This document shows, in pieces, positions 8,749-63,507 of a stretch of 64,000 nt of DNA (positions within the stretch are counted from its first letter, which is position 1; each line of letters starts with the position of its first letter). Made by a program: the position numbers and the translations under genes. The notes beneath the pieces were generated by a model. The model searched no databases. It saw nothing but the letters and a program-made list of their open reading frames with translations, and had not been told where the DNA came from. The DNA is from Sulfurovum sp. (lineage in GTDB: Bacteria; Campylobacterota; Campylobacteria; Campylobacterales; Sulfurovaceae). Location of the stretch: NCBI GenBank assembly GCA_026990595.1, contig JALXCZ010000008.1, forward strand, positions 62,001-126,000. Direction: 5' to 3'.

Positions 8749-8812
8749 GTAGGGGCAGACCCAAGTGTCTGCCCAAGAGACTAAGAGGATAGACACATAG
8801 GTCTATCCCTAC
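8749..8812. repeat. REP pair, variant B, between hpf and recG; supplies the recG stop codon
   Basis: Unit 1 (8749-8774, plus) is GTAGGG-GCAGAC, six bases, GTCTGC-CC. Unit 2 (8787-8812, minus) is GTAGGG-ATAGAC, six bases, GTCTAT-CC. They face each other with the GTAG ends outward and a 12-base spacer. The second unit changes GC to AT in one arm and GC to AT in the other, so the stem is preserved. TAG of the minus-strand GTAG (8811-8809) is the stop codon of recG. The pair sits between convergent genes and may end transcription from both sides, although no T-run follows. Confidence 0.85.
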
Positions 8813-10611
8813 GATATTTTAATTCTATTTTTAGCTCTAGCAACCACTTCTTCATCCTCCCCCATATCTAACCACTTGAACCGTTGACCGCTCTGGATCG
8901 TTCCATCGAGTATATCGCCGCTGTCACGGAATTTCAGATCGAGTTTTGCAATATCAAATCCATTAGTGGTTTGACAAAACTGCGTAAGGCGTTCATTGGC
9001 TGGGGAATTGCTGTAGAGGTAACACCAGCTCTTCAAACCGTTACGCCCTACCCTTCCTCTGAGCTGATGCAGCGTAGCCAATCCTAAGCGTTCTGCACCA
9101 ACGATGACAATAAGTGTAAGCCGAGGCAGAGAGATACCTACTTCCACTACCGTTGTAGCCAGTAAAATATCTCCTTTTTCTCTAAACTCCAGCAACACTT
9201 CCTCTTTTTGCTTGTCTTTTCCGTGGGTAACATAGACATTGTCAAACTTCTCTTCCCAAAACCCTCTGCTCTCTTCCAGTGACTGATAAGGTACTTCTGT
9301 GCTCTCTTCCACCAATGGGTAGATAATGAGCACCTGATGTTTTTTTGCTATTTCCTCTTTAACATGTGTCAACAGATTTGGGAAATCCTGTTTGGAGATA
9401 GTTCGGGTCAAAACCTCTCTCTCAAAAGGTGTGGTAGTAATAAGGCTGACATCAAGCAGTTCAGACTCCATCATTGCCTGGGTTCTTGGTATGGGCGTAG
9501 CGGAAAATTGTAAATAGTGTGGCTTTTTTTCATCCCCACCAGCCAAGGCTTCCAGACTGGCACGCTGTTTCGTACCAAAACGATGCTGTTCATCTACCAT
9601 TACAAGACTTGCCTGGGGAAGATCTTCTTTGTAGAGTAACGCATGGGTACCAATGATAAAATCTGCTTCCAAATAATCACCCTCATCCTTACCCTGCATG
9701 ACCAACGCAATATTCACCTCTTTTGGCAAATACTTACAGGCTTCTTCATACAGTTGTAAAGCAAGGAGTGACGTAGGTGCCATAAGTATGCTCTTATGCG
9801 GCAGTGCCATCATTACCGAAGCCAGGATCACCATCGTCTTCCCTGAACCCACATCTCCTACCACCATACGCTTGGCAGCTTTATCTTCACGTGAAAGATC
9901 TTTTTGAATAGCTTCTATCACAGTTTTCTGCTCATCGGTCAGTGTAAAGGGTAAATGCTCTACAAAAGGTTTAATATCGCCATGTAATGCCTTTAGTGCA
10001 GGGAAATCAACCTTTTTTCCCCGCAGTTTCTTCAAATGGTTAAACGCTTCTACAAACTTCAGTACTGCGATGAAATCTGGTTTAAAGCTGCCGTTTTCAT
10101 ATACTTCTTCCATACTTTTTGGAAAGTGTATATGCATAAGTGTTGCTACCTCTTTGGAGTCAAGCCCCTCATTAAAAAGATTTCTCTCTGTAACATAAAG
10201 CTCTACAAGAGAAGCGATCTCACTCTCCTTGAGTACGGTTTTGTATTTGGGAGTGATCTTGCCTATCTGCCTAATAGACTTTGGCTGAGACATTTGAAGA
10301 TAGCCTTTGTACTCTTCGAGTTTTCCCTGTATGACATGTGACGTTCCCACTTCAAAAAGTTTATGATGGTAGGGAGTGACACGAAAGAACATAGAAGAGA
10401 GCCGTCTGCCTGACTGTGTCAGATGAAAGGTTACCCGAAGCTTACCCTGATACACAGAGCTGTCTACAACCTTTGCTTCGAGTGTATTGACCTTGCCCAG
10501 CGTCAACGTTGTTGAAAGCGTGGTATCGTTATAGGAAGCAGGGATAATGAGAGCAAGATCAAGCAAAGAGTATATTTTGAGTTTCTTGAACAGCTGTTTT
10601 GCTTCTTCCAT
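8809..10611 (-). CDS. recG: ATP-dependent DNA helicase RecG
   Basis: This 600-residue superfamily 2 helicase reverses stalled replication forks and branch-migrates Holliday junctions. An OB-fold wedge region lies at about 40-115, Walker A VGDVGSGKT at 251-259, the DEQH box at 340-343, and helicase C motifs (TTVVEVGISLPR, HQLRGRVGR) toward the end. It is about 90 residues shorter than E. coli RecG, as is usual in Campylobacterota. GGAAG precedes the ATG. The last codons are followed directly by a TAG that belongs to a REP element, so the C-terminus (IKIS) may have been set by that insertion. Confidence 0.95.
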   Translation of the reverse strand: MEEAKQLFKKLKIYSLLDLALIIPASYNDTTLSTTLTLGKVNTLEAKVVDSSVYQGKLRVTFHLTQSGRRLSSMFFRVTPYHHKLFEVGTSHVIQGKLEEYKGYLQMSQPKSIRQIGKITPKYKTVLKESEIASLVELYVTERNLFNEGLDSKEVATLMHIHFPKSMEEVYENGSFKPDFIAVLKFVEAFNHLKKLRGKKVDFPALKALHGDIKPFVEHLPFTLTDEQKTVIEAIQKDLSREDKAAKRMVVGDVGSGKTMVILASVMMALPHKSILMAPTSLLALQLYEEACKYLPKEVNIALVMQGKDEGDYLEADFIIGTHALLYKEDLPQASLVMVDEQHRFGTKQRASLEALAGGDEKKPHYLQFSATPIPRTQAMMESELLDVSLITTTPFEREVLTRTISKQDFPNLLTHVKEEIAKKHQVLIIYPLVEESTEVPYQSLEESRGFWEEKFDNVYVTHGKDKQKEEVLLEFREKGDILLATTVVEVGISLPRLTLIVIVGAERLGLATLHQLRGRVGRNGLKSWCYLYSNSPANERLTQFCQTTNGFDIAKLDLKFRDSGDILDGTIQSGQRFKWLDMGEDEEVVARAKNRIKIS

Positions 10612-13293: not shown

Positions 13294-13366
13294 GTAGGGT
13301 GTTGTGCCCCACAACACCAAATAGTTTTAATTTCCAACAGCGTGTTGTAAGGGTACAACACCCTAC
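13294..13366. repeat. REP pair, variant A, between nusB and mqnC; supplies the nusB stop codon
   Basis: Unit 1 (13294-13318, plus) is GTAGGG-TGTTGT, loop GCCCC, ACAACA-CC. Unit 2 (13341-13366, minus) is the same with one mismatch in the outer arm. GTAG ends face outward across a 22-base spacer. The minus-strand TAG at 13365-13363 is the stop codon of nusB. The other end lies 11 bases upstream of the mqnC start. Confidence 0.87.
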
Positions 13367-39832: not shown

Positions 39833-41020
39833 ATGAAGAAAATATGTGTAATTGGTTTAGGATATATTGGCCTTCCCACAGCAGCATTGCTAGCTAACAG
39901 AGGTTATGAAGTGCATGGTGTCGATGTGGTACAAAGTACTGTTGATACCATCAATGAGGGAAACATCCACATCATAGAACCAGGGCTTGATACTTTTGTA
40001 CGTTCAGCCGTAAGTTCAGGTGCGCTTGTAGCAGACCTCAAGCCTGTTGAAGCAGATGTATTCATCATAGCAGTTCCAACACCTTTTCATAAGGGATATG
40101 TGCCAAATATAGATTACGTTGTCTCTGCTACAGAGTCTATTGCTCCTTACGTCAAAGAAGGTAACATAGTCATTCTTGAGTCTACATCCCCAGTAGGGAC
40201 TACCGACAAAGTCGCAGAAGTTCTTGCAGAGAATGGCATTGATACCAGCAAAGTACATATAGCACATTGTCCTGAGCGAGTTTTGCCCGGAAGAATCATG
40301 ATAGAACTTGTCGAAAATGACCGTATCGTTGGGGGAACTACTCCCGAATCTACTATAGCTACCGTGAAGTTTTACAATACATTTGTAGAAGGTGAAGTCC
40401 TCTCAACAGATGCAAAAACAGCAGAGATGGCAAAACTTACTGAAAACTCTTTCCGTGATACAAACATAGCCTTTGCTAATGAACTCTCCATTCTTTGTGA
40501 CAAGTTTGGTATTGATGTCTGGGAACTCATTGCCCTTGCCAATCGTCACCCTCGTGTCAATATCTTACAGCCAGGTGCCGGGGTAGGTGGTCACTGTATC
40601 GCGGTTGATCCTTGGTTCATCGTGCATGCAGGCGGTGAAGATGCGAAGATGATCCGAACTGCAAGAGAGGTCAATACTTATAAAACAGAATGGGCTATAG
40701 AAAAGATCAAAAATAAAGCACTAAAATTTGAGAATGAAAATGGACGGAAAGCAAAAGTGGCCTGTATGGGTCTAGCTTTTAAACCGGATATTGACGACCT
40801 TAGAGAGTCTCCTGCACTTTACATCACAAGAAGACTTATTGCTGATGGTCTTGATGTATCGGCAGTAGAACCAAATATCTTAGAGCATAGTGAGTTTGAC
40901 GTAGTCAACTACAACGTAGCTTTAGAAGCAGCAGATGTTGTTACATTTCTTGTTGGACATAAAGAGTTTAAAGGCTTAGATATAAAAACTGACTTAGATT
41001 TTTGTGGGGTATTAAAATAG
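39833..41020 (+). CDS. wecC: UDP-N-acetyl-D-mannosamine dehydrogenase
   Basis: A 395-residue enzyme of the UDP-glucose/GDP-mannose dehydrogenase family, oxidising UDP-ManNAc to the uronic acid. The NAD site is GLGYIGLPTAALLA at 7-20, the catalytic Cys is in GVGGHCIAVDPWF near 253, and C-terminal AFKPDIDDLRESPA follows. HCPERVLPGRIMIEL fits the WecC branch better than UDP-glucose dehydrogenase. The stop overlaps the GTG start of the next gene. Confidence 0.92.
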   Translation: MKKICVIGLGYIGLPTAALLANRGYEVHGVDVVQSTVDTINEGNIHIIEPGLDTFVRSAVSSGALVADLKPVEADVFIIAVPTPFHKGYVPNIDYVVSATESIAPYVKEGNIVILESTSPVGTTDKVAEVLAENGIDTSKVHIAHCPERVLPGRIMIELVENDRIVGGTTPESTIATVKFYNTFVEGEVLSTDAKTAEMAKLTENSFRDTNIAFANELSILCDKFGIDVWELIALANRHPRVNILQPGAGVGGHCIAVDPWFIVHAGGEDAKMIRTAREVNTYKTEWAIEKIKNKALKFENENGRKAKVACMGLAFKPDIDDLRESPALYITRRLIADGLDVSAVEPNILEHSEFDVVNYNVALEAADVVTFLVGHKEFKGLDIKTDLDFCGVLK

Positions 41021-62047: not shown

Positions 62048-62083
62048 CACGGTTACTAATACGACTGCAAAGGAATGATCTTC

Positions 62084-62713
62084 GTGATAGGAATTGTCGA
62101 TTATAATATGGGAAACCTTGCCTCTGTCATCAATGCTTTCAAAAAAGTCGGTGCAGATGTTCAGCTTGAGAGTAATCCTGCAAAACTGGATGAATATGAT
62201 AAACTTATCCTTCCGGGGGTAGGTGCATTTGGCGATGCGATGGATCATTTGAAAGCAAATGGTATGGATGTAGCAGTTAATACATTTGCTTCAAGCGGAA
62301 AGCCTTTGCTCGGTATCTGTTTGGGAATGCAACTGCTTTTTGACAGCTCTGAAGAATTTGGTTCTACCCAAGGTTTAGGGCTTATCCCCGGAGAAGTTGT
62401 AGCATTTGACGAAAGTAAGTTTGATCAGCCGCTTAAAGTACCTCATATGGGCTGGAATGAACTCTTCCGAAACAACGTAGGGGCAGACCCAAGTGTCTGC
62501 CCTTTGTTTAATGATTTGCCAAATGATTTCTACCTTTATTTTGTTCACTCATACCATGCTGTATGTGATGACAAATATGCCATAGGCAAAACACACTACG
62601 GTTACGAATTCGTAAGTGCAGTACAGAACGGAAATATTTACGGCATACAGCCACATCCGGAAAAAAGCCATGAAAATGGACTTAAAATTATAGAAAATTT
62701 TAGCAAACTGTAG
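62084..62713 (+). CDS. hisH: Imidazole glycerol phosphate synthase, glutaminase subunit
   Basis: A 209-residue class I amidotransferase that feeds ammonia to HisF in histidine synthesis. The nucleophile is C79 (GICLGMQLLF); GIQPHPEKS carries the catalytic His and Glu near 190. GTG at 62084 is chosen because AAAGGA lies nine bases upstream; the ATG at 62075 directly abuts it. Codons 132-140 (VGADPSVCP) are an in-frame REP unit identical to the one after hpf, placed between MGWNEL and the FVHSYH segment. The TAG stop belongs to another REP unit. Confidence 0.94.
   Translation: MIGIVDYNMGNLASVINAFKKVGADVQLESNPAKLDEYDKLILPGVGAFGDAMDHLKANGMDVAVNTFASSGKPLLGICLGMQLLFDSSEEFGSTQGLGLIPGEVVAFDESKFDQPLKVPHMGWNELFRNNVGADPSVCPLFNDLPNDFYLYFVHSYHAVCDDKYAIGKTHYGYEFVSAVQNGNIYGIQPHPEKSHENGLKIIENFSKL
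62477..62502 (+). repeat. REP unit, variant B, translated inside hisH
   Basis: GTAGGG-GCAGAC, loop CCAAGT, GTCTGC-CC, identical over all 26 bases to the unit at 8749-8774. It begins exactly on a codon boundary of hisH and is read as VGADPSVCP. The flanking hisH frame is intact. Confidence 0.9.
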
Positions 62714-62788
62714 GGTGTTGTACCCTTACAACACCACATTGATGTATGAATTTTATTAAATCGGTGTTGTCAGGAGACAACACCCTAC
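62710..62788. repeat. REP pair, variant A, between hisH and hisA; supplies the hisH stop codon
   Basis: Unit 1 (62710-62735, plus) is GTAGGG-TGTTGT, loop ACCCTT, ACAACA-CC. Unit 2 (62763-62788, minus) has the same arms with loop CTCCTG. GTAG ends face outward across a 27-base spacer. TAG at 62711-62713 ends hisH. The pair ends 11 bases before the hisA ATG and two bases before its AAGGA site. Confidence 0.88.
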
Positions 62789-62799
62789 AAGGAATAAAC

Positions 62800-63507
62800 A
62801 TGACAATACTTCCCGCGATCGATTTAAAAGACGGTAAAGCAGTAAGATTAAGCAAAGGACTGATGGATTCAGCCAAAATATACTCAGATGAGCCTTGGCA
62901 GGTTGCCAAAAAATTTGAAGAGCTCGGAAGTGAATGGGTACATCTGGTTGATCTTAACGGTGCCTTTGCTGGGAAACCTGAGAATTTGGAACAGATCAGA
63001 AAAATAAGAAAAAACTGTAACCTTAAGCTGGAACTTGGCGGCGGTATCAGGGATGAAGAGACGATCAAAATGTATCTTGATCTTGGTATCGACAGGTTGA
63101 TCCTTGGTTCCATTGCTGTAAAAGATGCACAATTCGTGAAAGATATGGCTGCCAAATATCCCATCGTTGTTGGGATTGATGCCATTGATGGTATGGTAGC
63201 AGTGGAAGGATGGGCTGAGACTTCGGATATGAAAGCAACTGAGCTGGCCCATGAGTTTGCTGCCTGCGGCGTACAGGCGATCATCTGTACCGATGTCGGC
63301 CGTGACGGAATGATGACAGGGGTAAACATTGCATTTACCAAAGCTATACAGGAAGCTTCAGGACTTGAAACCATTGCTTCGGGAGGACTTAAAGATATGA
63401 CAGATATTCATGCCCTCATTGAAGCAGGGATCGATGGAACTATTGTAGGTAAAGCTTTCTATGAAGGTACCTTGGACTTAGAAGAAGCATTTAAGGCAAC
63501 AAAATAA
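62800..63507 (+). CDS. hisA: Phosphoribosylformimino-AICAR phosphate isomerase
   Basis: A 235-residue TIM barrel catalysing the Amadori rearrangement before the HisHF step. [15 protein letters not shown] with the catalytic Asp, [28 protein letters not shown] and [13 protein letters not shown] are standard. ATG at 62800 has AAGGA upstream; the longer open frame runs back through the REP pair and is not coding. The stop overlaps prmA by one base. Confidence 0.95.

Follow-up and report, generated by a model that had tools for sequence, protein, structure and literature searches.

The hisH gene described here raises the question of how a palindromic DNA repeat comes to be read as part of an enzyme, and why at this particular place. 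In the window, i.e. the whole stretch of 64,000 nucleotides of DNA from the marine bacterium Sulfurovum that was analyzed, hisH codes for the glutaminase subunit of imidazole glycerol phosphate synthase, one loop of which is encoded by a REP (62084-62713, forward strand; assigned from TIGR01855, the open reading frame (ORF) and orthologue alignments). The ORF at 62075-62713 is open from an ATG at 62075, and the likely start is the GTG at 62084, which agrees with the orthologues. The 26-bp unit at 62477-62502 on the forward strand, GTAGGGGCAGACCCAAGTGTCTGCCC, begins at a codon boundary and is translated as VGADPSVC, with its last two bases opening a Pro codon. As proposed in the initial annotation, exactly the same bases are found at 8749-8774 on the forward strand, and this second copy indeed lies between genes. 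There, it is the first half of an inverted pair, the partner of which, GTAGGGATAGACCTATGTGTCTATCC, is at 8787-8812 on the reverse strand. The window contains only these two copies of the unit when up to three mismatches are allowed (shuffled sequences give an expectation of 0), and the genome to which the window belongs (G000; 2.05 Mb in 52 contigs) contains 11 at the same threshold, while a reversed-pattern control gives 0.

In its anatomy, the unit follows GTAG-type REPs, i.e. imperfect palindromes of 20-40 nt, with a GTAG foot, an 8-bp stem and a length of 26 nt. The family to which it belongs, family A, is dispersed, with 120 copies spread over 29 of the 78 genomes and none in the control; a part of these copies could be assigned to a location class (intergenic or not). 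Inverted pairs, a further hallmark of these elements, are formed by 8749-8774 with 8787-8812 and also occur in the linkers of priA genes. The unit is a GTAG-type REP, and it is inserted into hisH and read there in frame. A second GTAG family, GTAGGGTGTTGT..., is present immediately downstream at 62710-62735 on the forward strand, where its TAG is the hisH stop codon; this copy opens an inverted pair in the space separating hisH from hisA, and the other half at 62763-62788 on the reverse strand lies directly upstream of hisA (62800-63507, forward strand; TIGR00007, 264 bits). GTAG REPs have been described to supply TAG stop codons (PMC3733652), and we observed this for neighboring ORFs not only at 62710-62735 but also at 13294-13318, 13342-13366 and 8787-8812, the last of which overlaps the stop of the ORF at 8809-10611. 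Plasmids were searched for a match to the hisH region and none was found.

Comparison with orthologues, as suggested in the initial annotation, revealed a true insertion. Among 58 Sulfurovum hisH genes in which the corresponding slot could be read, 39 are empty and 19 are occupied, and every insert is in frame. In the 39 empty genes and in three outgroup genes, six residues with the consensus VQKETP connect MGWNELF to LF. In a set of 60 HisH proteins that covers many phyla, only the query and one other Sulfurovum protein (L214) have an extension in the slot and 58 do not, and none of the compared orthologues that lack the repeat has the same residues and length at this place. As with the protein-coding palindromic inserts of Rickettsia, the REP is found in this gene and lacking in most orthologues, with the frame kept. 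While the translation VGADPSVC(P) given initially is right, the net gain is six residues rather than nine: with a REP of 26 nt and a gene that is only 18 nt longer, the REP took the place of about 8 nt in the ancestral FVQKETP-LF segment.

The protein is intact in sequence with this insertion. HisH matches TIGR01855 with 225 bits (cut-off, 105), and C78, H190 and E192 (numbering of P0001), the class I glutaminase triad, are invariant in the alignment of 60 sequences, in line with the initial claim that the catalytic Cys, His and Glu are kept. The gene is presumably expressed, and HisH is presumably still active. In an AlphaFold2 model with a mean pLDDT of 95, only the block of residues 131-140 has a low value (66); this block sits between strands 120-128 and 147-154, and the REP segment is thus predicted to form a loop joining two strands. 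The fold matches of the model are HisH structures, the best of which is 4gud (TM 0.88). In the alignment, the loop is bordered by the residues that correspond to W123 and Y138 of T. maritima. W123 belongs to the HisF interface hinge (PMC12828452); the crystal structure 2wjz is that of a HisH K181A/Y138A mutant, and its title speaks of a constitutive property. Because residues equivalent to W123 and Y138 flank the loop and W123 is part of the hinge, the insert may lie near the HisF partner subunit.

The inserts in the 19 occupied genes are of unrelated kinds that include the TTCGACAAGCTCAGTG repeat, one further palindrome and several 7-bp tandem repeats. Specifically, the GTAG REP (kind A; +18 nt) is found in five species (G000, G007, G019, G088 and G081); the palindromic GTAGGGGTCTGACC element (kind B) in G012 (+48 nt) and in G069, where a loss between its direct GGGTCTGACC repeats explains the gain of only +6 nt; CTTCGACAAGCTCAGTGACC (kind C; +18 nt) in G014; TCAACGC 7-mers (kind D; +18 nt) in G036, G016, G090 and G066; ATTAGAA/ATGAGAA 7-mers (kind E; +18 nt) in G018; GTGAGCA 7-mers (kind F; +18 nt) in G068; and AGATGGA 7-mers (kind G; +42 nt) in G009, G067, G079, G083 and G091. 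Within Sulfurovum, kinds A, C, D and E/F occur as dispersed repeats and kind G is weakly dispersed; in the controls, the degenerate E/F pattern and G have counts above zero because other 7-mer arrays match them. Dispersal was not supported for kind B, whose hits outside hisH are no commoner than in the control. The REP register is identical in all five REP-bearing species (9 nt before the REP, 26 nt of REP and 1 nt after it), and the gain of 18 nt recurs in five kinds of insert. Two further hisH genes deserve a description of their own. The gene of G017 (L028) has no net insert and contains TGCAAAAAACCTACAAAA, which looks like what is left of the kind B palindrome seen in G012 and G069, and G036 has two copies (L018 and L074) on two contigs with differing TCAACGC arrays, representing either a second gene copy or a mixed bin.

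To place these inserts on a phylogeny, we used a tree of four genes, i.e. hisA together with hisH, mutY and priA from which the slots had been removed. With regard to INDEPENDENCE, insert-bearing genes are scattered on this tree, on which branch supports are uneven and which requires no fewer than 12 switches between an empty and an occupied slot and 14 switches of kind. The closest relatives of G000 and G088 have empty slots (G077 and G084). A single clade of the five REP bearers is rejected by AU tests with the four genes (p 5e-5) and with hisH DNA alone (p 0.003), and one group of all 19 insert bearers is also rejected. With the hisH protein alone, the clade of five REP bearers is not rejected (p 0.14), making slot transfer or conversion possible. 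On the basis of the AU tests, we reject a single ancestral insertion of the REP followed by vertical inheritance.

Repeats are also translated in other genes. In-frame REPs are present in folC (L008) and priA of G000, in mutY of several species, in cbiB of G085 (L095) and in lnt of G012 (L103); in folC, cbiB and lnt, the reading frames and the orientations of the REPs differ. Of the 64 mutY genes that could be read, 36 have no insert and 28 have one, in most cases with a recognizable and often eroded REP peptide, e.g. GQAQGIAPT; in most occupied genes, the REP-derived segment accounts for 27-30 additional nt, and no host sequence was lost. Across many species (L184-L213, L324-L358), the mutY REP peptide is found in states from fresh to eroded, forming a series that leads from DNA repeat to protein segment. 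In priA, one place in the linker holds either arrays of 7-mers or REPs of some eight families in inverted pairs; nearly every Sulfurovum priA read (L294-L323, L359-L383) has a repeat there, with about 19 loci unparsed by the motif used. Together, hisH, mutY and priA make up ~0.2% of the genome and hold 15 of the 120 family-A copies, compared to ~0.2 expected from gene length, a ratio that is descriptive because the three genes were picked out by their repeats.

How could such different repeats reach the same slot? A gene for a RAYT (REP-associated tyrosine transposase; PF01797) is present in 58 of 78 genomes. In G000, contig 45 has a RAYT fragment at its end with three REPs (40508-40899; L005-L007), of which two form an inverted pair upstream and the third lies in frame within the fragment; its match to NF047646 (E 4.8e-8) is below the cut-off because the gene is severed by the contig end. 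We suggest that a RAYT probably spread copies of the GTAG REP through the genome and would also have moved the hisH copy, and that the REP entered the coding sequence in frame in the loop between the MGWNE strand and the YFVHS strand. It would then be transcribed and translated within HisH, adding six net residues and leaving the catalytic residues intact. The loop seems to tolerate extra residues, which would make it a permissive slot, and as Sulfurovum evolved, dispersed repeats without relation to one another (GTAG REPs, other palindromes and 7-bp tandem repeats) would have entered it or displaced each other, with only in-frame, stop-free versions surviving. What the unrelated repeats have in common is their landing place, and this favors a tolerant protein loop over a target sequence; selection would act mainly as a filter for tolerance. 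A link between heptamer repeats and RAYTs is not known, and the 7-mer arrays would need a separate process, e.g. slippage or repair with copied sequence. Altogether, we consider it likely that ongoing mobility of repeats together with selection for tolerant surface loops explains the inserts in the hisH slot.

The common 9-26-1 register and the recurring gain of 18 nt count against free random insertion and point to a length constraint, replacement within the slot or conversion. We therefore considered that repeats may have entered only a few times and then been exchanged in place, through recombination with, or gene conversion by, copies located between genes, or by transfer of the slot between species, with length and register kept. 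This would account for the one register in which every REP copy sits and for the repeated +18 nt, for the nesting of the AGATGGA (+42) and TCAACGC (+18) arrays within one clade, for the inverted REP pairs of some eight families at one priA site and for the loop CCCAAG, which the hisH REPs of G000 and G019 have in common and which is absent from the other REPs found in G019. However, empty genes with the ancestral FVQKETP adjoin occupied ones in the tree, so that several separate gains or precise reversals are needed, and hisH DNA alone rejects a single clade of REP bearers. We regard few entries followed by replacement as a possible but less probable history. The broader idea that surface loops of HisH, MutY and PriA are standing exchange sites, in which slots once opened have been refilled or swapped repeat for repeat over speciation at near constant length and in which families of non-coding repeats would thereby turn over within proteins, is similarly tentative.

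The insert might alternatively be kept because the extra loop, the Cys or a hairpin in the mRNA adjusts HisH, the pairing of HisH with HisF, translation or mRNA decay. The loop connects strands with the equivalents of W123 and Y138, both of which are linked to activation via HisF (PMC12828452; title of 2wjz), and the RNA hairpin predicted for the hisH REP is stable (-14.2 kcal/mol, z -3.0). The inserts of other species, however, have no sequence, Cys or hairpin in common, 39 of the 58 genes have no insert at all, and the segment is the sole poorly determined part of the AlphaFold2 model; thus, a function of the insert is improbable. Since the heptamer inserts lack a palindromic structure, a regulatory mRNA hairpin is rejected as the common reason for the inserts. 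Many genomes in the set are drafts assembled from metagenomes, which could raise the suspicion of an assembly or binning artefact, yet the hisH REP is internal to a 178-kb contig, a REP is found at the equal position in five genomes and the single-contig genome G016 has the TCAACGC version. Because an insert is present in this genome, we reject an assembly artefact, which we consider extremely improbable.

GTAG REPs, their presence in Sulfurovum and their occurrence inside some ORFs, often of replication and repair genes, were described by Di Nocera et al. in 2013 (PMC3733652), who also reported different REPs at about one site in recB of two Xanthomonas. The elements described here agree with these intragenic REPs in being GTAG-headed palindromes of 20-40 bp that are mostly intergenic, and priA and mutY are the repair and replication hosts in our data. 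The hisH REP is therefore not new in kind. In contrast, the main text of that study does not name hisH, mutY or priA and gives no account of one slot that holds REPs, other palindromes and heptamer arrays across one genus. The initial annotation had likened the hisH REP to the Rickettsia palindromic elements (RPEs), with a GTAG-type REP as the difference; the likeness holds, since in both cases a palindromic repeat is in frame in many genes and tolerated by the protein, and the comparison is not new, given the intragenic GTAG REPs published in 2013. The repeat families differ, the Rickettsia hosts are obligate intracellular and RPEs have no known RAYT link. Moreover, the intragenic RPE-4 and RPE-6 of R. 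conorii are CGTC repeats and RPE-1 is longer (PMC3733652); the GTAG head speaks against the hisH REP belonging to the RPE families. The window and priA contain inverted REP pairs that, like the REP-flanked RAYT of G000, resemble REPINs and RAYT REPtrons, from which the hisH copy differs as a single unit within a coding sequence. Finally, the 7-bp arrays dispersed across Sulfurovum are like known short tandem heptanucleotide repeats (PMC4679880), but here they are also translated, in hisH and priA, in slots that hold REPs in relatives.

What is new is the reuse of a slot by unrelated repeats, in one genus and in three genes; in the limited literature searched, no earlier description of slot reuse by unrelated kinds of repeat was found. 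The sharing of the slot became visible from relatives, beyond the window of 64,000 nucleotides. The spread of such short repeats, as has been stated for REPs (PMC8266576), is poorly understood. Because these insertions are in coding sequence, empty and occupied sites can be aligned codon by codon, and with 39 empty and 19 occupied hisH sites, together with those of mutY and priA, insertion, replacement and decay can be put in time order. Sulfurovum thus offers a view of how free-living bacteria turn non-coding repeats into protein sequence, with one loop of HisH as a recurring landing place for them.
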